Virus record (IMG/VR): IMGVR_UViG_3300019776_000902
Span: 1 to 28,797 of that record
DNA from: a virus
Strand: one strand, 5' to 3'
Length of the DNA: 28,797 nucleotides
A model generated the notes under the pieces. That model was given only the letters and a program-made list of their open reading frames with translations. It searched no databases and was not told the DNA's origin. Made by a program: the position numbers and the translations under genes. Positions 1,321 to 26,632 of this stretch are shown here, in pieces. Each line of letters starts with the position of its first letter. Position 1 is the first letter of the stretch.

Positions 1321-1650
1321 CTAGATGGTAGGCACGAGCCGGACTCGCATTGTGGCGTCCGCCGAGGCGGCAGCCTGCACACAATAGCCGATTTTCATGT
1401 TGCCGCTGGCAGTCTTGGTGACATTCTTGTTGGTGTCGTCCCAATAGATCAGGTCACCGACTGCTGCGGTTGCCGCCACCGTGTAGCGCAAGTCATACAC
1501 GCCAGTCGTGCGGCCGCGAACGGCAGCGCCATTGGCTGCAGCAGCAGCAGCAACGGCAAAAATGCTGCCGACTTTGAAACCGGCGCCCGAGGCGACGGCA
1601 TAGGGCGCCAGGAGATCCAGCACGACGCCATCCTGGATAAAGTTCTTCAT
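1321..1650 (-). CDS. DUF2190-type capsid cement/decoration protein
   Basis: This 109-residue protein matches the DUF2190 pattern: an N-terminal MKNFIQDGVVLDLLAPY, a glycine/alanine-rich first beta half with GAGFKVGSIFAVA, then GDLIYWDDTNKNVTKTASGNMKIGYCVQAA and a beta-rich end RVRLVPTI. DUF2190 proteins are usually encoded directly after the major capsid gene. They are thought to stabilise the expanded capsid, in the role of lambda gpD. The start at 1650 is backed by a GGAGAGAG ribosome site just upstream. A strong terminator follows at 1261-1293, so this is the last gene of the highly expressed capsid block. The 99 bases between it and the capsid gene hold nothing I can identify. Confidence 0.8.
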   Translation of the reverse strand: MKNFIQDGVVLDLLAPYAVASGAGFKVGSIFAVAAAAAANGAAVRGRTTGVYDLRYTVAATAAVGDLIYWDDTNKNVTKTASGNMKIGYCVQAAASADATMRVRLVPTI

Positions 1651-1749: not shown

Positions 1750-4092
1750 TTACGGGCCAGGGTTGCGATACAGCCCGCGGAAGTCGAGCAGGTTGGCTCC
1801 GGCATCGAGCCGCACCTTGATGCTCGTGCCGTCAATGGTCCACCCGGCCTGGGTTTCGACAACCGGCTCTTCGATCCCGTCGAGATAGGTGATCTCCACC
1901 GTGTCGAACTGGTTCGGGTCAGCGGCAAGAAACCACTGATTGCCGGTGATGCGGCGGTCAGTGACAGGCGTCACCAGTCCCTGCACCGTATTGACGACGC
2001 CGGCATTCTTCTGGTCGGTCAGCGACCCGGTCGACATCATCAGCTGCTTCAGGGTGAACTCGTAGGCACCCGAAAGCGCATACCGCGGCCGAATATTGAG
2101 TGCCACGGCTGCAGAGTCGGCATCTTTCTGCGCAACCATGGCATTCCAGCCAGCCTGCAGCGTCGCCTCCGAGGGAGCGGCACCCGAACCGGCAAGGTTC
2201 GCGTGCTGGCTGGAAAACAGGGCAAAGCCGTCCGCCATTGTCGGGTTGCTCGTCAGCACAGCGTAGGCAAGGTTCCCCACCGTGCGCTTCGCAGCACGAC
2301 CCATCTTCACCGGCAGGTTGCCGAGCACGCTCAGATCATCATTGATGACAGTCTGACGCGAGACCGATACCAGCTTGCCATAGGTGGCGATGACCACTGT
2401 AGCTCCACGGTCGCCGACCGTGCCATACTTGAACTCGGACCCCTCTTCGATCCGGTCAAGCGTTGGGAACAGCCCGAGGTCCACCCGCGTCGACGGCTTG
2501 AAGTCCGACCCCTGGCCTTTCGAAGTCCAGAGCTCAAAGGTTTCGTCGGCCTCGACATAGCCCTTCAGCACGCTCTTGTTGAGGACGTTCTGCAGAATCC
2601 ATGCAAAATCGGACGTGGTGTGCGCACCGCCCATCATGCCGAAGCCCGACGCCGTGAAGGCCGAGCCGATCATGTCCATCCGCGGCATCAGGCGGGCTTC
2701 GCGAACCCCCGCGGTAAGCAACGACTCGCGAGCCAGCTCCGCCAGCGTCAGGCCGGAAAACTCGTTGCGCTCGCCGCCGTCAAGACCCACTTTTGCCATC
2801 AGCGCCCTGCTGGCGCCTTCGCGGAACCGCTCGCGCACATCGCGGCCCATCTGGCTCACGGCAGGCGCCGCAGCAGGCATGGCGCCTGCTGCAGATGCGT
2901 CATCGGCACCAAAGGCGCGCAGAACGGCAGCGCCGGCAAACGCATCTGCCTGCACGAGCTGCAGTGACGTTGCTTCCACCGACGCGCCGGAAGTGCGAGC
3001 CGCGTTGATGATGGCAGTACCGGCGACGTGGCCGTTGATGCGCCTTGCCAGGTCGTCGAGACCGTTGAGGCGCTCGCGTTCGGCGGCAAAGCGCCGCTCG
3101 GCGTCGGCGGTCGCCTGTGCAGCCGCGGATGCGACGGCAGCGTCGAGCTGCGCCTGGGTGATGCCCGCAGTATCGGCCGTGGGCGCGCCGTTGTTTCCGC
3201 TCATTCGCTGTCCTTTTGCTGCTGAGGGAGTGCGCCCAGGGGCGCGGGTCAGGCCCTCGAGGGCCGTTTCAAAAGTACCGATGCGATCGGCAAGGCCGAT
3301 TTTCACCGCTTCGGCACCGGTAAACACGCGGGCCTCGGTGGCACGCGCCATGTCGGCCGCGAACCGGGCGCCGCGAGCGGCCCCCACTGCGTCGACGAAT
3401 TTGCTGTAGATCGCGTCAACCTGCGCCTGGATGTCGGCGCGCACCGACTCAGGCAGCGGCCCATAGGGGTTGCCATCCACCTTGTGCGCCCCGGCATAGA
3501 TCAGCGTTGGCGTCACGCCCTGCTCGGCAAGCCGCTTGCTCATGTCGGCATGCATGTAGACGACGCCGATCGACCCCGAGATTCCGGTATCGGTCGTCAC
3601 GATCTCGCTGGCATGGCTCGCCAGCAGGTAGGCTGCCGATGCAGCCACGCCATTGACCACCGCAACGACGCGCTTTTGTGCCGCCACCTCCGCGATCAGT
3701 TGCGCGGTTTCGAACGCGCCAGTCACCTCGCCGCCACCCGATTGGAAATCCAGCAGCACGGCTCGCACATCACCGCTGTCGCGGGCGGCTTTCAGCTGAT
3801 GCTGCAGCCCCTCATAAGAGGTCATGCCCGATTGCGCGCCCAGCCATGCACCGCGGTTCACCAGCGAGCCCAGCACCGAAATGATGCCCACCCCGTCCTT
3901 GACGCGAAACGGCATCATGCGGGCCTGCCCATCGGCGCCAATGGCAATCGGGCTGCCCTCAAACTGGCTCATCTGCGCCGCATCGACGCCGATGCGCCCA
4001 CCCAGCACCTCCATGATGATCGCGGCTTTTTCCGGCTGCAGCAGCAGCGGCTGGTTGAGCACGCGGTCGGCAATATGTGCGAGAAAGCTCAT
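1750..4092 (-). CDS. S49 prohead protease / scaffold / major capsid protein fusion
   Basis: This 780-residue protein carries three functions normally found in separate or overlapping genes. Residues 1-290 are an S49 (SppA/lambda C-like) serine protease. Ser152 in VAASAAYLL and Lys204 in AGAHKVDGNPYGPL are 52 residues apart, as in the Ser-Lys dyad of SppA. Residues about 297-400 are alanine-rich and helical with charged stretches, as in internal scaffolds. Residues about 410-780 are a capsid domain with Mu gpT-like features (YGKLVSVSRQTVINDDLS, ALFSSQHANL). The start at 4092 overlaps the portal stop as ATGA. An internal ATG at 3204 has a good ribosome site, so a 484-residue scaffold-capsid product is probable. 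A frame extending upstream of 4092 overlaps the portal gene and was not used. The protease should cleave the scaffold during prohead maturation. Confidence 0.9.
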   Translation of the reverse strand: MSFLAHIADRVLNQPLLLQPEKAAIIMEVLGGRIGVDAAQMSQFEGSPIAIGADGQARMMPFRVKDGVGIISVLGSLVNRGAWLGAQSGMTSYEGLQHQLKAARDSGDVRAVLLDFQSGGGEVTGAFETAQLIAEVAAQKRVVAVVNGVAASAAYLLASHASEIVTTDTGISGSIGVVYMHADMSKRLAEQGVTPTLIYAGAHKVDGNPYGPLPESVRADIQAQVDAIYSKFVDAVGAARGARFAADMARATEARVFTGAEAVKIGLADRIGTFETALEGLTRAPGRTPSAAKGQRMSGNNGAPTADTAGITQAQLDAAVASAAAQATADAERRFAAERERLNGLDDLARRINGHVAGTAIINAARTSGASVEATSLQLVQADAFAGAAVLRAFGADDASAAGAMPAAAPAVSQMGRDVRERFREGASRALMAKVGLDGGERNEFSGLTLAELARESLLTAGVREARLMPRMDMIGSAFTASGFGMMGGAHTTSDFAWILQNVLNKSVLKGYVEADETFELWTSKGQGSDFKPSTRVDLGLFPTLDRIEEGSEFKYGTVGDRGATVVIATYGKLVSVSRQTVINDDLSVLGNLPVKMGRAAKRTVGNLAYAVLTSNPTMADGFALFSSQHANLAGSGAAPSEATLQAGWNAMVAQKDADSAAVALNIRPRYALSGAYEFTLKQLMMSTGSLTDQKNAGVVNTVQGLVTPVTDRRITGNQWFLAADPNQFDTVEITYLDGIEEPVVETQAGWTIDGTSIKVRLDAGANLLDFRGLYRNPGP
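3202..3216 (-). promoter_or_regulatory. Internal ribosome site and start for scaffold-capsid product
   Basis: On the minus strand AAAGGA (complement of 3211-3216) lies six bases before an in-frame ATG at 3204 (codon 297, MSGNNG). This is a canonical initiation site exactly at the junction between the protease and scaffold domains. It parallels the internal Nu3 start in lambda gene C, but here the frame continues into the capsid domain without a stop. Confidence 0.6.
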
Positions 4093-5633
4093 GGCACCTG
4101 TCCATTCTGGTCTTGCGGCGGCAGTTGCCGCTGCGTCTGCGCCGTGCCGAGGATGGCGCGTTCGCGCAGCACCTGCCGGCTCTTGGTGTCGAAATCGCCT
4201 CCGGTGCGTTCGCTCATCACCTGCTCGAGCGTTTTCGCGCCGTTTTCGAGGTCGGTAGCATCGGCATTGGCCTCGACCTGCGGGTTGATCTGCACGCGCG
4301 TCGGGCCAATCCACATCCGCCCCAGCCACGCCGCCCGGCGGATCGGGTCGGCGAAAAAACCGGGAGCCGAAAACCGCCCGGTCGCCACCATTTCGGTGAA
4401 TTGCCATTCGCGGATCGGGTCCATCACCGAGCGGATGAACCATTCCTGCTCGATCATCGCCACCTTGTAGGCCAGCTCGAGGGCACCCCGGCTGGCCGAA
4501 AACGACGCCGCGAAATGCTGCAGCAGCAGCTCGTAGGGGATACCGAGCGCCACGCCGATCTGCTTGCAGAACGCCGCGACAAAGCCGTCGAAAGCCGTGT
4601 TTGGCCGCGAGGGCGCCTTGACATTGACTTTCCGCCCCGGCGCCAGCGAAACGACGCTCAAATCGTCGAGCGTCAGCTCCCCGTCATTGTCCTGCTGCCC
4701 ATCGGCGCGGGTCAGAATCGGGTTGCCGTCATCGTCCACTTCGGCCGGCGATTCCTCGAATGCAAACAGATACGCGTCATTGATTGCCGCCTTGATTTCC
4801 GCTGCCGAGTAGTCGCTCAGCTGTTTCAGGTCCTGTTCCACGGCCGCGAAAATCGGTACGCCGCGCACCTGGCCGGGCCGCTCGATTTCGGCAGCCAGCA
4901 GCGCCTGGCGCATGCCGCTGGCCCCGCGCATGGGCACGTATGACCAGTTCAGTGCAGTGGCAAACCGGTCGCCGGGGTGACGGTCACAGATATGCAGGCC
5001 CAGAATTTCGCCATCGGGCCCCAGTTGCACGCCGCCTTGCCGGTTCGACATGTCCGGCCCCTCGCCGGGGTTGCAGATCCGGTCGGCCTCGATCAGCACC
5101 AGTTTCGTGCCATATGTGTCGCTGCCGCGCTTGCGGTAGCGGCGCACCACGGCCACGTCGCCCGAGACGCGCGCCGAGCGAAACGCCACGCGCTGCCAGT
5201 CTCTCAGGTGCAGCTGCCCGGCAAAATCGCACTCGCGCTCGAAGATTTCCCATTCGCGCTCGATCTGGTACTGCAGCAGGCTTGCCTGTTCCGGCGACAG
5301 CCCCAGCACATCGGCATCGAGCACCGAGCGCAGCCGCACGCCCGACCCGATTGCCCCGTTCACCTTGGTATTGGCCGCGCCATGCGCCAGCGCATTGTTG
5401 CGGTCGAGATCGCGCGACCTTGCGCGCAGCACATTCAGCGCCGGCAGCAGATCCGATGCCGCCGAGCCGCGGCGCGGGCGCCAGCCGCGCGTGCGCTTGG
5501 TGTCCGGGTTGGCGGCGTCATAGCCGCCCAGCCCAGCCATGGCCAGCGCGCCACGCTGCATCGTCAGGGCAAACGATGCCATGCCCAGCGCGAGAACCCC
5601 GCGCAGGCTGTTCTTCTTCGCTTTTGCGGCCAC
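4089..5633 (-). CDS. Lambda B-type portal protein
   Basis: This 514-residue protein fits the lambda family of portals (Phage_portal_2). An arginine-rich N-terminal region is followed by LNVLRARSRDLDRNNALAHGAANTKVNGAIGSGVRL, a hallmark of the family. A second block is FRSARVSGDVAVVRRYR ... LVLIEADRICNPGE, and a third is GVPIFAAVEQDLKQLSDYSAAEIKAA. The C-terminal part has SFSASRGALELAYKVAMIEQEWFIRSVMDPIREWQ. The portal forms the dodecameric ring through which DNA enters and leaves the head and to which the joiner and terminase bind. The start is a GTG at 5633 without a strong ribosome site, 10 bases after the joiner stop, so translation is probably coupled. Its stop overlaps the start of the protease-capsid gene as ATGA. 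Confidence 0.92.
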   Translation of the reverse strand: MAAKAKKNSLRGVLALGMASFALTMQRGALAMAGLGGYDAANPDTKRTRGWRPRRGSAASDLLPALNVLRARSRDLDRNNALAHGAANTKVNGAIGSGVRLRSVLDADVLGLSPEQASLLQYQIEREWEIFERECDFAGQLHLRDWQRVAFRSARVSGDVAVVRRYRKRGSDTYGTKLVLIEADRICNPGEGPDMSNRQGGVQLGPDGEILGLHICDRHPGDRFATALNWSYVPMRGASGMRQALLAAEIERPGQVRGVPIFAAVEQDLKQLSDYSAAEIKAAINDAYLFAFEESPAEVDDDGNPILTRADGQQDNDGELTLDDLSVVSLAPGRKVNVKAPSRPNTAFDGFVAAFCKQIGVALGIPYELLLQHFAASFSASRGALELAYKVAMIEQEWFIRSVMDPIREWQFTEMVATGRFSAPGFFADPIRRAAWLGRMWIGPTRVQINPQVEANADATDLENGAKTLEQVMSERTGGDFDTKSRQVLRERAILGTAQTQRQLPPQDQNGQVP

Positions 5634-12684: not shown

Positions 12685-12899
12685 GCCGCACCGCCTTCGG
12701 CTGCGCGCGGCAAGCTGATGGCGGCGCGGCACCCATCCGGCCCGCAGGTCCAGTCGCCCGCAAGCTTGATGTCGCGCAGGTCGAGCGCGTGGCGCAGGTT
12801 GACGCCCCGACCGAACGGCGCCCAGGCCCCGCACTGGCACTTGTGCACCAGCACGCGATGGCCCGGCGAACTCTCGGTTTCACGCGCCACCGCCATCAT
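12681..12899 (-). CDS. 72-residue cysteine-rich hypothetical protein
   Basis: The protein has a likely zinc-binding arrangement, CQCGAW in the first half and CGPDGC in the second, separated by GVNLRHALDLRDIKLAGDWT. The start at 12899 overlaps the methyltransferase stop as ATGA and the stop overlaps the next gene the same way, so it is firmly part of the operon. A small zinc-ribbon that binds nucleic acid or protein is plausible; no specific family was recognised. Confidence 0.65.
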   Translation of the reverse strand: MMAVARETESSPGHRVLVHKCQCGAWAPFGRGVNLRHALDLRDIKLAGDWTCGPDGCRAAISLPRAAEGGAA

Positions 12900-13864
12900 G
12901 CAGCCACCGTCAACTCGTGGCGGCAGTTGGCGCGCGCCAGCAGCTCCACCATGCGCGGCGGCACCGAGTTTCCGACCAGATGGCCGATCTCGGTCTTGTT
13001 CGGCTTGCGCCGCACTTTGCGCCCCTTGGCGTCCGTCACCTCAATGTCGTGCTGCAGCGATGCCGGATCGAACCCATGCGCCCGCGCGCCCTCGAGGGGG
13101 TCGAGCATCCGCATGCTGATGTCGGTGATCACCATCGTTTGCCCGTTCACCTCAACGGTGACGAGGCCGTGCCGATCGTTGACGGTCACCGTGTGCAGCG
13201 GGTCGCGGGCGTCGTGGGCGACGCCGAACAGCCGCGTGCGGATCGTCGGCACGCCGAAATCGGCGCAGCAGAGGCTGCGATGCTCAAACGAATAGCCGAG
13301 GCCGCGCATATGCTTGAGCCAGGCGCGCCAGATCCTGCCCTTGTGGCGCGGATCAGGGATCAGCCATTGCTGTTCCACCGGCACGCGCTCGCCCTTCTCT
13401 GCGACGCTGCCGTCGAGGCGCAACACCCGGCCCGTCGCCTTGTCGCGCTTGGCGATCAGCGGCCCCCAGGTGGTGATCTCGCGCACGTTTTCGAGCGTCA
13501 CCACTTCGGGCCGCACGGTGCCGCACCAGCGAGGCACAACCCACGCCAGCGAGCGGCGACGCTTGCTCACCGGTTTCGCGCCTTTCGCCACCGAGAAATG
13601 GGTGCAGTCGGGCGAGACATGCAGTACCCGCACGCCGCGGCCTTGCGTGGCCGCGCGCGGGTCGACCTCGAACACGTCGCACCGGAGATGTTTGGTGTGC
13701 GGGTGCCGCGACTCGTGCACGGCAATCGCCAGCGGGTCGTGGTTGACTGCGAGGTGCACGTGAAAGCCCGCATCCTCGAGCCCGTCGCAGCCGCCGCCCA
13801 TGCCGGCGAACAGCACCACGGTCATGCGGTCATCGAGCGACCAGTTGCTGCCAATTGCGTTCAT
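12896..13864 (-). CDS. DNA (cytosine-5) methyltransferase
   Basis: This 322-residue enzyme shows the ordered motifs of 5-methylcytosine methyltransferases. Motif I is VLFAGMGGGCDGL (17-29) for AdoMet binding. Motif IV is SPDCTHFS with catalytic Cys87; many phage members have SPDC instead of the PPCQ of classic enzymes. Motif VI is ENVRE (125-129). The motif VIII region is FGVPTIRTRLFGVA and motif X is GNSVPPRM near the end. The target recognition region lies about 135-280. It transfers a methyl group from AdoMet to cytosine in a short target. No restriction endonuclease is adjacent, so it is an orphan enzyme that could protect phage DNA from host restriction or adjust gene expression. The start at 13864 overlaps the upstream stop as ATGA. 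Confidence 0.9.
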   Translation of the reverse strand: MNAIGSNWSLDDRMTVVLFAGMGGGCDGLEDAGFHVHLAVNHDPLAIAVHESRHPHTKHLRCDVFEVDPRAATQGRGVRVLHVSPDCTHFSVAKGAKPVSKRRRSLAWVVPRWCGTVRPEVVTLENVREITTWGPLIAKRDKATGRVLRLDGSVAEKGERVPVEQQWLIPDPRHKGRIWRAWLKHMRGLGYSFEHRSLCCADFGVPTIRTRLFGVAHDARDPLHTVTVNDRHGLVTVEVNGQTMVITDISMRMLDPLEGARAHGFDPASLQHDIEVTDAKGRKVRRKPNKTEIGHLVGNSVPPRMVELLARANCRHELTVAA

Positions 13865-14169
13865 CCGAACAAGCTCCCCTGGCCTTCGCCCGCGCCGAAC
13901 CAGCCGAGCTCGGCCAGCTTCCAGCGGGGCACGCTGAGTTTCTTCACCGCGCGGCCATGCCGGCGCCGCAGATCCTGCAATTCGGCCAGGTCCGCCCCGG
14001 CGAAGCGGTGCCCGCCGGGCAGCAGCAGCATGGAGCGCGGCACCCAGCCGACGCCCGGCCCATCGAGCGCGCACAGGTGCAGCGCGCTATCGGTGTGCCC
14101 GAGGTAAACCACCTCGAGCTCCACGCGCTCGGCCGGTTCGTTGAGTGCGCCCGCTGGCGCCGCGCTCAT
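13861..14169 (-). CDS. Hypothetical phage protein, 102 residues
   Basis: The ATG at 14169 is chosen because GAGG lies just upstream and the previous gene stops eight bases before it; the longer frame is the antisense of the DUF2303 gene end. The product has a beta-rich first half (ERVELEVVYLGHTDSALHLCALDGPGVGWVPRSMLLLPGG). A basic helical part follows (FAGADLAELQDLRRRHGRAVKKLSVPRWKLAELGWFG). Placed between DUF2303 and the methyltransferase, it may act with either, but I do not recognise a family. Confidence 0.65.
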   Translation of the reverse strand: MSAAPAGALNEPAERVELEVVYLGHTDSALHLCALDGPGVGWVPRSMLLLPGGHRFAGADLAELQDLRRRHGRAVKKLSVPRWKLAELGWFGAGEGQGSLFG

Positions 14170-16301: not shown

Positions 16302-16678
16302 AGCCCGGCCTCCTGGCGGCCCTTCGCCATGACGTTGCGGATGAGCTGCAAATCGCGCGGGCGGATGCGGAAGCCGAGGCCCCACTCGCATTCGATGACG
16401 ATGCCCGACGAGGCGAGCGCCACGCGCAGCCGCCGCATGTGCACCGAAACCGCCTTCTCGCTTTGCGCACAGTCCTGCCAGGCGCTCACCAGCATGGCGG
16501 CGCTTTCGTAGCCACCCTGCGCCAGGCTCCACAGGAACCGCGCCTGCATGGGCTGCAGCAGAAAAGCGCGTTTCAGCGCGGCAATCTCCTGCAGGGCTTC
16601 CCACGCCTTGCGCATCAGGCCTTGCGTTTCGATGACATCAAGCATCTGCTTCAGGTCAGCCGGTAAATGCACGTTCAC
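16298..16678 (-). CDS. OmpR/PhoB-type winged-helix protein
   Basis: This 126-residue protein begins with GTG at 16678, decided by GGAGG six bases upstream and a GTGA overlap with the methyltransferase gene. Residues about 40-110 (QPMQARFLWSLAQGGYESAAMLVSAWQDCAQSEKAVSVHMRRLRVALASSGIVIECEWGLGFRI) follow the PhoB-type winged-helix DNA-binding pattern. They include the recognition-helix segment VSVHMRRLRVAL and the GLGFRI wing. There is no receiver domain, so it cannot be phosphorylated as a normal response regulator and probably binds DNA constitutively. Its neighbours, a GcrA-like protein and two methyltransferases, suggest a block that acts on transcription or on host cell-cycle control. Confidence 0.75.
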   Translation of the reverse strand: MNVHLPADLKQMLDVIETQGLMRKAWEALQEIAALKRAFLLQPMQARFLWSLAQGGYESAAMLVSAWQDCAQSEKAVSVHMRRLRVALASSGIVIECEWGLGFRIRPRDLQLIRNVMAKGRQEAGL

Positions 16679-17400
16679 TTGGCACCTCCGAACAATTGCC
16701 CGCGGTCGGCATCGGCGCGGTCGAGCATCAAGAGTTGCGTTGCTCCGGGCGCCGCGCGCCGATCCCACACGAACCAGGCGTTGGTGACGGGCGATGCGCC
16801 CTGCCCCGTCCAGTCGATGCGCCAGCGCATCACGTAGACTCGCGCCGGCCGCCAATCGCGCCACAGGGCGGCGCGGCCCGAGGCGGCAGGCCAGCCCAGC
16901 GGCAGCAGCAGCGCCATGTATTCGAGCTCGATCATTTCCATGCCGTGCCGCACCCAGCCGGGGTCGGCATTGCAGGGCGCAAAGGGCGGGTTGGTCATCA
17001 CCGTGCGGGAAAGCCGCGTGCGGCGGGTGAACGCGAACCAGTCGCGGATCAGCGCACCGGCGCCCCGGTCGACAAGGTCGCTGCCGACGCAGGGAAAGCC
17101 CGCCGCGCGGAACTCGCGCAGCATGGCGCCATCGCCCGCCGCCGGCTCCCAGATTTCGCCCGCCAGATCGAGCCGGTTGCGCTCGGCTGCCAGAAAGGCG
17201 CGAATGGGTTCGGCCGGGGTCGGGTAGAAATCATCGGCTTCGCGCGGCAACCCGCCGTCCTTGCGCGCCGCGCGGTCGCCCAGCAGCTCGGCGCTCACCG
17301 GCTTTGCTGCCTTGCCGGTGGCGCGGAACAGCCCGCGCGCCGAGGCCGCGGTGTTGAGAATGCCGGCTATGCCGCCGGCCTCATCGCGAGCGCCGCTCAT
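16675..17400 (-). CDS. Phage DNA adenine-type methyltransferase
   Basis: This 241-residue enzyme has the AdoMet motif IWEPAAGDGAM (83-93), an acidic residue after the next strand (GSDL, 107-110), and the catalytic TNPPF at 136-140. These are typical of N6-adenine (or N4-cytosine) methyltransferases. The lead-in DDFYPTPAEPIRAFL (57-70) is common in phage-encoded members. It lacks a large recognition domain, so specificity is probably broad or set by a partner. The start at 17400 overlaps the previous stop as ATGA. With the cytosine-5 enzyme downstream, this phage can modify two kinds of base; no cognate nuclease is nearby. Confidence 0.8.
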   Translation of the reverse strand: MSGARDEAGGIAGILNTAASARGLFRATGKAAKPVSAELLGDRAARKDGGLPREADDFYPTPAEPIRAFLAAERNRLDLAGEIWEPAAGDGAMLREFRAAGFPCVGSDLVDRGAGALIRDWFAFTRRTRLSRTVMTNPPFAPCNADPGWVRHGMEMIELEYMALLLPLGWPAASGRAALWRDWRPARVYVMRWRIDWTGQGASPVTNAWFVWDRRAAPGATQLLMLDRADADRGQLFGGAK

Positions 17401-19460: not shown

Positions 19461-19489
19461 GTAAGCATAACTTACACTTAGATGCAAGT
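19461..19489 (-). promoter_or_regulatory. Leftward operator/promoter element (oL-like)
   Basis: The palindrome GTAAG-CATAA-CTTAC lies at 19461-19475. Read on the minus strand, the 29-base element matches the one at 20715-20743 at 23 of 29 positions: ACTTGCA, five variable bases, GTGTAAGTT, one variable base, TGCTTAC. A -35-like TTGCAT (complement of 19482-19487) with an 18-base spacer leads to a weak -10 (TACGTT, complement of 19458-19463). A repressor bound here would block the Cro-like operon. Confidence 0.75.
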
Positions 19490-19503
19490 AGCTCTGACAT
19501 TGA

Positions 19504-19522
19504 CTGAAAGGCCACCTTTCAG
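19504..19522. promoter_or_regulatory. Perfect palindrome before the repressor gene
   Basis: CTGAAAGG (19504-19511) and CCTTTCAG (19515-19522) form a perfect 8-bp inverted repeat with a 3-base centre, 13 bases before the preferred CI start. It differs in sequence from the GTAAG operators, so it may bind another protein (for example the Cro-like product) or form a leader hairpin in the repressor message. Confidence 0.5.
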
Positions 19523-19535
19523 CACGTTTTGCGAC

Positions 19536-20279
19536 ATGGAAACGCAAGGATCTCGCATTCGCTTTGTGCGCGACGCGCTTGGGCTGACGCAGGCGCAGTT
19601 TGCCGCCGCGCTGTCGCGTCAGGCGCGGCTGATGTCCGGCGAAATCGCCGGCGAAGCCGTCACACGCGGCGCGGTTGCCAACTGGGAACGCGACAAAGGC
19701 ATCGCGCACAAAAACCTGCTGGCACTTGTCGAAATGGTCGGCATCAGCATCGATTGGCTGGCGCGCGGGATTGGCCCGGCGCCAGCGCGGGAAACGCTGG
19801 CGCAGCTTGGGGTCGCGCTGTTGCCGCGTCCGGCACGCTCGCTGCCCATGCAGTTCGAAGCGACCAGCACCCGCACGGCGCCGCTGTTTGGCACCGCCGC
19901 GGGCGCACTGCTGGGACACGGATCGTTCATTGTGTCAAACGAGCCTGTCGACGAAGTGCCGATGATGCCGGGCCTGGTGGGCGAGCCCGGCGTTTATGCG
20001 CTGCTCGTCACCGGCGATTCGATGTTTCCGATGTTCCCGGATGGCGAGCTGGTTTACGTGTCTTCGGCGCGGCAGCCGCGCAAGGGCGACGCGGCCATCA
20101 TTCAGCAGCGAACCGGCAAGGGCGCCAACCTCGAGGCGTTCATCAAGCTCTTCGAACGCGAAACGGGCGACTCCCTCGTCACCACGCAGCTGAACCCGGC
20201 CGCGCCGGTGATCTTCCCGCGCCGCACGGTGGCAAGCTGCCACCGCGTTTATTCGCGCCGCGAGCTGGCCGGCGTTTAG
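19536..20279 (+). CDS. CI-type self-cleaving repressor (HTH + S24)
   Basis: This 247-residue repressor has an N-terminal XRE helix-turn-helix: IRFVRDALGLTQAQFAAALSRQ ... VTRGAVANWERDKGIAHKNLLALVEMVGISIDWLARG (8-78). It is interrupted by an unusual 10-residue insertion. The C-terminal S24 domain has Ser162 in VTGDSMFPMFPDGELVYV and Lys204 in AFIKLFE. An Ala122-Gly123 pair lies 39 residues before the serine, nearly the spacing in lambda CI (38). Autocleavage stimulated by RecA is therefore expected, giving SOS induction. It is divergent from the Cro-like gene. The start at 19536 (METQGSRIRF) is favoured by domain length; an ATG at 19482 would begin inside the operator. No strong ribosome site precedes either. 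Its stop overlaps the convergent membrane gene by three bases. Confidence 0.88.
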   Translation: METQGSRIRFVRDALGLTQAQFAAALSRQARLMSGEIAGEAVTRGAVANWERDKGIAHKNLLALVEMVGISIDWLARGIGPAPARETLAQLGVALLPRPARSLPMQFEATSTRTAPLFGTAAGALLGHGSFIVSNEPVDEVPMMPGLVGEPGVYALLVTGDSMFPMFPDGELVYVSSARQPRKGDAAIIQQRTGKGANLEAFIKLFERETGDSLVTTQLNPAAPVIFPRRTVASCHRVYSRRELAGV

Positions 20280-25228: not shown

Positions 25229-25494
25229 CCGCCCCGCGCCAGCGGCTGCAGGTTTTGCCGCGCGGGCTCAGCCGCATGCAGGCGGCCGCGCGCATCGGCG
25301 TTTCGGTGGGCACGTTTGCCCGCATGGTGGCCGATGGGCTGATGCCGCCCGCCCGCGCCATCTACTCGCTAGAGATCTGGGATATCGAAGAGCTCGACCA
25401 GGCCTTCGACCGCCTGCCCCACGCCGGCCAGAACGCGCCCCCTTCCCCTCGCGGCGGCAATGCCGCACCATTGCCGCAGAGCGACCTTGCCTGA
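25225..25494 (+). CDS. Excisionase-like (MerR/AlpA type) HTH protein
   Basis: This 89-residue protein contains LPRGLSRMQAAARIGVSVGTFARMVADGLMPPARAIYSLEIWDIEELDQAFDRLP (about 9-65). It is a winged helix-turn-helix of the type encoded directly before integrases in alphaproteobacterial prophages. It probably acts as a recombination directionality factor (Xis), or guides the integrase choice, by bending the attachment site. A TTG start at 25225 overlaps the previous stop; ATG at 25276 is an alternative that would cut the first HTH residues. The C-terminal tail (about 67-89) is proline/glycine-rich. The integrase starts 13 bases after its stop. Confidence 0.7.
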   Translation: MTAPRQRLQVLPRGLSRMQAAARIGVSVGTFARMVADGLMPPARAIYSLEIWDIEELDQAFDRLPHAGQNAPPSPRGGNAAPLPQSDLA

Positions 25495-25507
25495 CGAGGG
25501 GAACGAA

Positions 25508-26632
25508 ATGGCGCGCGGCATCACTCGCGACAGGGACAGGCACGGCAATGTGCGGCTGTATTTCCGCAGGCGCGGGCAACCGAAAATCCGGCTGCACGAG
25601 CGCGAGGGCACCGAGGCCTTCGAGCAGGAGCTGGCTGCCGCGCGCCTTGGCGTGCCCTACTTGCCCGATGCGCCCCGCCCGGTAGCCGATGCCCGCCCGC
25701 GCCGCATCAGCGCGCCACAGGGCTCGCTCCGCTGGCTGGTGGAAGAGTACATGCGCCGTGCCGTCGCCGGGCAGGCGCCCGCCACCCGCATCAAGAAGCG
25801 CGCCGTGCTCGATGAAATCTGCCGCGAAACCGTGATCAGCAAATCGGGCGCCGAGGCCGGGCTTGCGCCTTACCGTCACCTCGAGCGGCGGCACATCGCG
25901 CTGCTGCGCGACCAGAAGGCCGCAAGCCCGGCCGCGGCCGACCACCGCACGAAGGTGCTGAGCGCCATGTTCGCGTGGGCCATCGACGCGGGGCTCGCCA
26001 CCGACAACCCGGCGCGCGGCCTCGGCAAGCTGGCAGGCCGCACCGATGGGCACCACACGCTGACGCGCGACGAGCTCGCCGCATTCGAGCAGCGCCACCC
26101 GCCCGGCACCATGGCCTACGCCGCGATGACGGTGTTTCGCTACACCGGCCTGCGCGTGTGCGACGCGGTGCGGCTGGGGCACCAGCACCTCTACACGCTG
26201 ACCGATTCGGCAGGCGAGCCGCAGCTGCGCTTCCGCATCACGCCCGACAAGACGCGCGGCTCGAGCGGCGTGCTGGTCGATCTGCCTGTGCTGCCGCCCC
26301 TCGCGGCGGTTATCGCCAGCCTGCCGAAAACCAGCGCGCTCACGTTCATCACCACCGAGCACGGCAAGCCGTTCAGCACCAAGGGCCTCGGCCAGCGGAT
26401 GCGCAAGTGGTTCGACGCGGCGGGGCTGACGCATTGCTCGAGCCACGGCATCCGCAAGGCCGACGCAGTGATCGCCGCTGAAAACGGCGCGACCAGCAAG
26501 GAATTGCAGGCGATGTTTGGATGGACCAGCTCACGCGAGGCCGATCGCTACACGAAAAAAGCCGAGCGGCAGCGGCTCGGCACAAGCGGCGCACCCAGCC
26601 TGATGCTGGTGCACCAGCGGCCCAAAACGTGA
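25508..26632 (+). CDS. int: Tyrosine recombinase (phage integrase)
   Basis: This 374-residue site-specific recombinase has an N-terminal arm-binding region (RDRHGNVRLYFRRRGQPKIRL), a core-binding SAM-like domain (about 72-175) and a catalytic domain. The catalytic residues are Arg216 (FRYTGLRVCDAVRL), Lys248 (TPDKTRG), His313 and Arg316 (SSHGIRKADA), Trp339 (MFGWTSSREADRYTK) and the nucleophile Tyr348. It catalyses integration and, with Xis, excision. The start at 25508 (MARGITRDRD) is favoured by GAGGGG upstream. Phage genes lie on both sides of it in this window, so the attachment site next to it, if functional, is not occupied by host DNA. Confidence 0.93.
   Translation: MARGITRDRDRHGNVRLYFRRRGQPKIRLHEREGTEAFEQELAAARLGVPYLPDAPRPVADARPRRISAPQGSLRWLVEEYMRRAVAGQAPATRIKKRAVLDEICRETVISKSGAEAGLAPYRHLERRHIALLRDQKAASPAAADHRTKVLSAMFAWAIDAGLATDNPARGLGKLAGRTDGHHTLTRDELAAFEQRHPPGTMAYAAMTVFRYTGLRVCDAVRLGHQHLYTLTDSAGEPQLRFRITPDKTRGSSGVLVDLPVLPPLAAVIASLPKTSALTFITTEHGKPFSTKGLGQRMRKWFDAAGLTHCSSHGIRKADAVIAAENGATSKELQAMFGWTSSREADRYTKKAERQRLGTSGAPSLMLVHQRPKT

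Follow-up and report, generated by a model that had tools for sequence, protein, structure and literature searches.

The window, meaning the whole 28,797-nucleotide stretch of viral DNA analyzed here, contains on its minus strand a protease-scaffold-major capsid fusion gene (1750-4092) located between a portal protein gene (4089-5633, minus strand; PF05136, with TIGR01539 below its cut-off) and a head decoration protein gene (1321-1650, minus strand; phrog_122). Since the portal gene and, further upstream of it, a terminase precede the fusion gene and the decoration protein follows it, the region corresponds to an ordinary tailed-phage head module. The fusion gene runs from an ATG at 4092 to a stop at 1750 and encodes 780 residues. 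These limits had been given correctly in a first-pass annotation; the gene is read from the minus strand, the plus strand of 1750-4092 containing stops. The frame is also open 5' of 4092 up to an ATG at 4443, and this extra part overlaps the portal gene. The portal stop and the fusion start share an ATGA (4089-4092, minus strand), which likely couples translation of the full-length product to the portal gene. The window also carries DNA methyltransferase genes from two separate PHROG families (12896-14074 and 16675-17400, both minus strand), as well as a repressor-like gene (19482-20279, plus strand) and an integrase (25460-26632, plus strand), from which we consider the phage probably temperate.

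We then assigned the modules of the fusion gene, whose coordinates are all on the minus strand. Pfam places Peptidase_S49 (PF01343) at residues 136-281 (117.7 bits, gathering threshold 24.9) and, in the same frame, Phage_capsid_4 (PF25209) at residues 466-777 (165.9 bits, gathering threshold 27). The head maturation protease profile phrog_53, which we equate with the family of lambda gpC, covers residues 3-422 (E 5.5e-105), and phrog_4523 ("major head and protease protein") covers residues 301-779, so that the scaffold region is covered by both profiles. Pfam, PHROGs and AlphaFold2 thus confirm the proposal that an S49 protease, a scaffold-like region and a capsid share one 780-codon frame. 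The protease itself, of the lambda gpC type, extends approximately over residues 52-285 (3238-3939), as supported by PF01343, phrog_53 and the SppA structures 3rst and 4kwb. Ser152 (3637-3639) and Lys204 (3481-3483) were found at the positions previously given for them and, in alignment, fall in the active-site region of SppA; by position and alignment, the presumed Ser/Lys dyad of S49 peptidases appears to be present. Lys204 aligns with an alanine in 3rst, which is the K199A mutant. NCBIfam holds two models for fusions of this kind, NF045540 and NF045541; the window protein missed both cut-offs (400.2 against 475 and 393.2 against 525), and the best stretches span only residue 256 or 293 onward.

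The AlphaFold2 model of the full-length protein, built with a 59-row alignment, reached a mean pLDDT of 80.5, with a confident protease and a capsid confident from about residue 419. Between them we observed a predicted disordered linker (residues 289-311; 3160-3228; pLDDT <50), a scaffold of three predicted helices (residues 313-352, 356-368 and 372-396; 2905-3156) and a low-confidence stretch (residues 390-415; 2848-2925) that may include the scaffold/capsid cleavage region. Foldseek searches with this model retrieved SppA structures (3rst/4kwb) and, on the capsid side, the shells of LME-1, JBD30 and HK97 (9eg4, 8rkx and 2fs3, E about 3e-7 to 8e-7); these matches came without aligned ranges, and the part covered by each target was deduced from the identity of the target. 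The part singled out for structure prediction in the first-pass annotation (residues 410-780) thereby contains a predicted HK97 fold, and we delimited the major capsid domain to residues 419-780 (1753-2838). The proposed short product, modeled from its single sequence only, gave a mean pLDDT of 37.9, and this model was set aside.

The sequence elements described for an internal start are present as claimed: a Shine-Dalgarno-like AAAGGA (3216-3211) is followed by CAGCGA and, six bases away, by an in-frame ATG (3204-3202) at codon 297 (MSGNNGAP). This ATG sits in the predicted disordered linker, directly before the scaffold helices, and initiation there would yield a scaffold-capsid product of 484 residues (1750-3204). 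The strength of the Shine-Dalgarno (-5.3 kcal/mol) is unremarkable for a single gene when taken alone: the codon-permutation p value is 0.476, 527 of 3000 synonymous shuffles match or beat it at codon 297, and two other in-frame ATGs of the gene score better (-6.4). The mRNA around codon 297 is the least structured among the 22 internal in-frame ATGs of the gene, a degree of openness matched by 2 of 3000 synonymous shuffles. When weak structure and Shine-Dalgarno were required jointly, 1 of 3000 shuffles reproduced them at codon 297, and 4 of 600 did so somewhere among the 22 ATGs. The codons used at the site are rare (GGA, 6 of 83 glycine codons; CGA, 2 of 49 arginine codons).

In lambda, the C/Nu3 gene gives protease and scaffold as nested products through internal initiation. 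As in lambda, the window gene has an S49 protease and then a scaffold, with an in-frame Shine-Dalgarno-ATG just after the protease. However, the lambda frame stops after the scaffold, with decoration protein D and capsid E as separate genes, whereas the proposed short product of the window would also include the capsid protein. Compared with phrog_53-type genes, the window gene possesses the protease and the scaffold; it does not end after the scaffold, its frame running on into PF25209. The lambda internal site (CAGGAGGGCGA-ATG) is located 131 codons before the gene end, which we take to be the start of the Nu3 scaffold, a protein of 131 residues. In the lambda record OR974322, C is annotated at 3019-4299 and nu3 at 3694-4299 (201 residues); the strong Shine-Dalgarno-ATG lies downstream of this nu3 start, and the annotation may use an old start. 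Lambda C and E, although encoded separately, are reported as covalently joined in the prohead in passages of PMC3224144.

We extended this comparison to gpC-type genes that are not fused, with 21 representatives standing for 72 complete ORFs. After the protease, an internal Shine-Dalgarno-ATG at -6 kcal/mol or better was found in 12 of the 21 representatives for 6.4 expected (combined p 9e-6), and the site fell within 12-45 codons 3' of the protease in 19 of 21. These sites are weakly structured (-6.5 versus -10.7 and -12.3). No enrichment in proline, serine or threonine after the methionine was observed in these unfused genes (9/21, against 21/56 for other methionines of the region). The window site aligns with AAAGGAATTACG-ATG of one of them, L019 (window KGQRMSGNNGAPT, L019 KGITMSEKNGAPA), in an ungapped reading done by hand, the automatic alignment placing the two methionines two columns apart. 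By this alignment, the position and context of the window start appear to match those of a gpC-type internal scaffold start. A PF25209-type capsid was found in none of 80 IMG/VR gpC-type loci, in 9 of which the protease frame is cut by the locus end.

The relatives of the two halves of the protein point in different directions. In a whole-protein search of annotated phages, the best matches were ClpP-type fusions (mEp043, F10, MD8), which align over the capsid part only, and the protease part matches lambda gpC-type genes. Such a three-in-one gene has been proposed for phage MD8 in passages of PMC8508860. The ClpP-type fusions (MD8, F10, mEp043, Fels-1; NF045540/NF045541; phrog_4523, phrog_133) have the same one-frame protease-scaffold-capsid organization, the same PF25209 capsid and the same location directly after the portal gene; their protease is ClpP, whereas that of the window is S49. 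A tree built from 71 capsid domains puts the window in one group with the ClpP fusions L002 and L110 (SH-aLRT 100), and the four other S49 fusions we retrieved form a capsid clade of their own (SH-aLRT 100). Since the window and these other S49 fusions fall apart on the tree, S49 proteases have joined the PF25209 capsid at least twice. The three protease labels require at least six changes on this tree (quick method, no bootstrap).

Close similarity to L002 begins at window residue 408, and the window scaffold is weakly similar to both the gpC and the ClpP-fusion lineages, which would place the fusion breakpoint somewhere between about residue 305 and residue 410. The most fitting description of the window gene is a nested C/Nu3 gene of the lambda type whose frame has been extended into a capsid like those of ClpP fusions. 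An assembly chimera was considered, the nearest capsids belonging to ClpP fusions and the nearest proteases to unfused gpC genes; the existence of four further S49 fusions makes this less likely. Three of these four are on bacterial genome contigs, and L187 and L190 are also assigned by Pfam. The protease-capsid junction of the window itself is carried by one contig, the other S49 fusions being a separate clade.

To describe the family, we searched with the capsid profile and fetched the best 80 of more than 550 virus contigs and the best 80 of more than 550 bacterial genome contigs; together with earlier phage loci and the window, these gave 180 PF25209-capsid ORFs. A protease was fused to the capsid, with an intact 5' side, in 163 of them (133 ClpP, 25 S78 and 5 S49; for S78, the assignment was confirmed by Pfam in L085 and L090 and fell below the limit in L088). 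Six more are fused with a cut 5' side and nine lack a protease and run off the locus. The last two are L108, which is frameshifted, and the Faecalibacterium phage FP_Epona (L094), in which the protease (1923-2453) and the scaffold-capsid (2467-4059) are separate genes, the second beginning after a Shine-Dalgarno AGGAGG. Apart from FP_Epona, no clearly split arrangement occurs in the set of 180 capsid ORFs. We rejected L108 as a second split gene because its ClpP frame overlaps the capsid ORF, which reads as a frameshift. Besides L108, whose frameshift was seen here, a frameshift-broken fusion gene is reported by the depositors of Pseudomonas phage PAN70 (L262, 1963-4043); these breaks may reflect either decay of the gene or errors of sequencing.

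The five S49 fusions among the fetched loci are the window, L107 (IMG/VR) and L183, L187 and L190 (Roseobacter-group bacteria). Like the window, the other four have an S49 protease fused to the PF25209 capsid and an internal Shine-Dalgarno-ATG (L183, -12.1; L187, -8.5; L190, -12.2; L107, -6.3). Their start is located 107-118 residues before the capsid, after a longer linker, whereas that of the window is located 138 residues before it. A conserved GC[EK]TG peptide occurs shortly 5' of the internal start in three of them (L183, about 470-487; L187, about 415-433; L190, about 375-393, in ORF numbering), the surrounding linkers being different.

We next analyzed the internal start across the fused genes. 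The ORFs were reduced to 71 representatives at 70% identity, one of which was dropped for having no methionine between protease and capsid, and every in-frame ATG of the 70 others was scored against the anti-Shine-Dalgarno, strong sites being those at -6 kcal/mol or better. Between protease and capsid, the top-scoring in-frame ATG was strong in 51 of 70 representatives for 18.2 expected by codon permutation (combined p 5e-14), with 4/5 for S49, 9/11 for S78 and 38/54 for ClpP fusions. By comparison, the same threshold was reached by 13 of 270 out-of-frame ATGs of the region and by 66 of 1238 in-frame ATGs elsewhere. Three further properties, which are independent of how the ATG was chosen, were then considered. 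The residue following the chosen methionine is proline, serine or threonine in 50 of 70 representatives, versus 49/251 for other methionines of the region and 15/125 for Shine-Dalgarno-preceded methionines elsewhere. The 68 sites that score -5 or better have a folding energy of -6.8 around the start, compared with -12.2 at Shine-Dalgarno-preceded methionines elsewhere (p 3e-15) and -10.8 at other methionines of the protease-capsid region. Finally, the distance from the chosen ATG to the capsid is 100-165 residues in 56 of 70 representatives. In mEp043 and MD8, the internal ATG is codon 211 (MPKSIRN) and codon 220 (MPEALK), respectively.

The combined p values overstate independence, because the representatives are related. 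When the capsids were clustered at 60% identity, the mean over the 21 clusters was 79% at -6 or better and 99% at -5 or better, with proline, serine or threonine as the next residue in 68%. A synonymous shuffle applied to the best methionine of the region was not significant (combined p 0.15; 4/70 genes below 0.05), suggesting that much of the Shine-Dalgarno signal rests on amino-acid choice, for example Lys-Glu. The same shuffle at the chosen methionine (68 genes) gave combined p values of 0.014 for the Shine-Dalgarno and 0.0027 for weak structure, the latter falling below 0.05 at 7 of 68 chosen methionines compared with 3 of 272 control methionines. Within the five S49 genes alone, the shuffle at the chosen methionine was not significant. 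Overall, the internal start described in the window stands as a conserved feature of the family, placed in the window in the predicted linker before the scaffold. The accompanying proposal, an excess of the short product over the full fusion, is not implied by the strength of the signals: the internal Shine-Dalgarno beats the annotated first start, which may itself be misplaced, in only 9 of 15 fused genes (the window, at -5.3, included).

These observations make it probable that the gene gives two nested products, a long protease-scaffold-capsid and a short scaffold-capsid. The main competing explanation, which we consider unlikely, is that translation gives the full-length protein and nothing shorter, with every capsid subunit bringing its own protease and processing alone determining the final makeup of the shell. 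The MD8 gene is indeed described as one gene product, or "a single propeptide", in passages of PMC8508860 and PMC9855967. The retention of the fusion in 163 ORFs, versus one clear two-gene exception among the 180 capsid ORFs, fits this reading too, and some first starts are strong (mEp043, -11.6; Pd_22F, -11.6). However, a full-length product alone does not account for the start-like signals found at this junction with ClpP, S78 and S49 proteases alike, nor for the same internal site in lambda-type C genes, and on general grounds it would be expensive to load each procapsid with protease domains by the hundred.

It is less probable still that the internal Shine-Dalgarno and ATG are a relic, left from separate modules or from the Nu3-type start of a donor and now unused or unneeded. 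The alignment of the window start with the Nu3-type start of unfused genes would be expected from such an origin, and the weak signal at the synonymous level agrees with it. Yet a relic should decay in old lineages, and the chosen ATG is at -5 or better in 68 of 70 representatives and, as a mean over the 21 clusters, in 99%; the next-residue and structure signs also fit a start. Equally improbable is a short product that would be a minor species helping as a scaffold or assembly factor, with the long form as main subunit: the ratio is not fixed by sequence and the internal Shine-Dalgarno is not consistently the stronger, but the short product holds the whole capsid domain, and the scaffold-capsid unit is a gene of its own in FP_Epona.

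Returning to two nested products, ribosomes finishing the portal gene would, through translational coupling, initiate at 4092 and make the protease-scaffold-capsid of 780 residues, and ribosomes binding the internal AAAGGA would initiate at 3204 and make the scaffold-capsid of 484 residues. The long form would co-assemble through the scaffold and capsid that it has in common with the short form, and the protease domains carried into the procapsid would thus be few. Once there, the protease would release itself and the scaffold by cutting the flexible linkers, putatively around residues 289-311 and 390-415. The short product would resemble HK97 gp5, for which passages of PMC8508860 describe a delta (scaffold) domain and shell in one chain, in line with the fold match to 2fs3; the HK97 protease gp4, unlike that of the window, is a separate gene. 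What the sequences themselves show is the fusion with its domains, together with an internal start signal that is conserved, and the joint retention of fusion and internal start suggests a role for both products. Were the long product dispensable, one would expect a broken frame of the FP_Epona kind; were the short one dispensable, one would expect the internal start to decay.

The fusion and the lambda-type nested arrangement were already known, and the novelty is the internal start in fused genes. It was not found in a search of the titles and abstract beginnings of open-licence papers, and the words "internal" and "start codon" are absent from the main text of the MD8 paper (PMC8508860). 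Genes of this fused type are carried by lambdoid phages infecting E. coli, Salmonella and Pseudomonas, as well as by many bacterial contigs, and their products are annotated as "head maturation protease", "Clp protease" or "major capsid protein". With somewhat less assurance than for the window gene, we lean toward a two-start plan that is widespread and unrecognised, in which nearly all protease-scaffold-capsid genes would encode a second, protease-free product, and in which ClpP, S78 and S49 would have been exchanged several times before the same capsid, the internal start staying in place. Use of the internal start would mean that translation initiation sets the stoichiometry of the capsid, as in lambda C/Nu3 with the shell protein added, and that the true capsid precursor is mis-annotated across a large family. 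The two-start plan also suggests how proteases may be swapped without disturbing the capsid.
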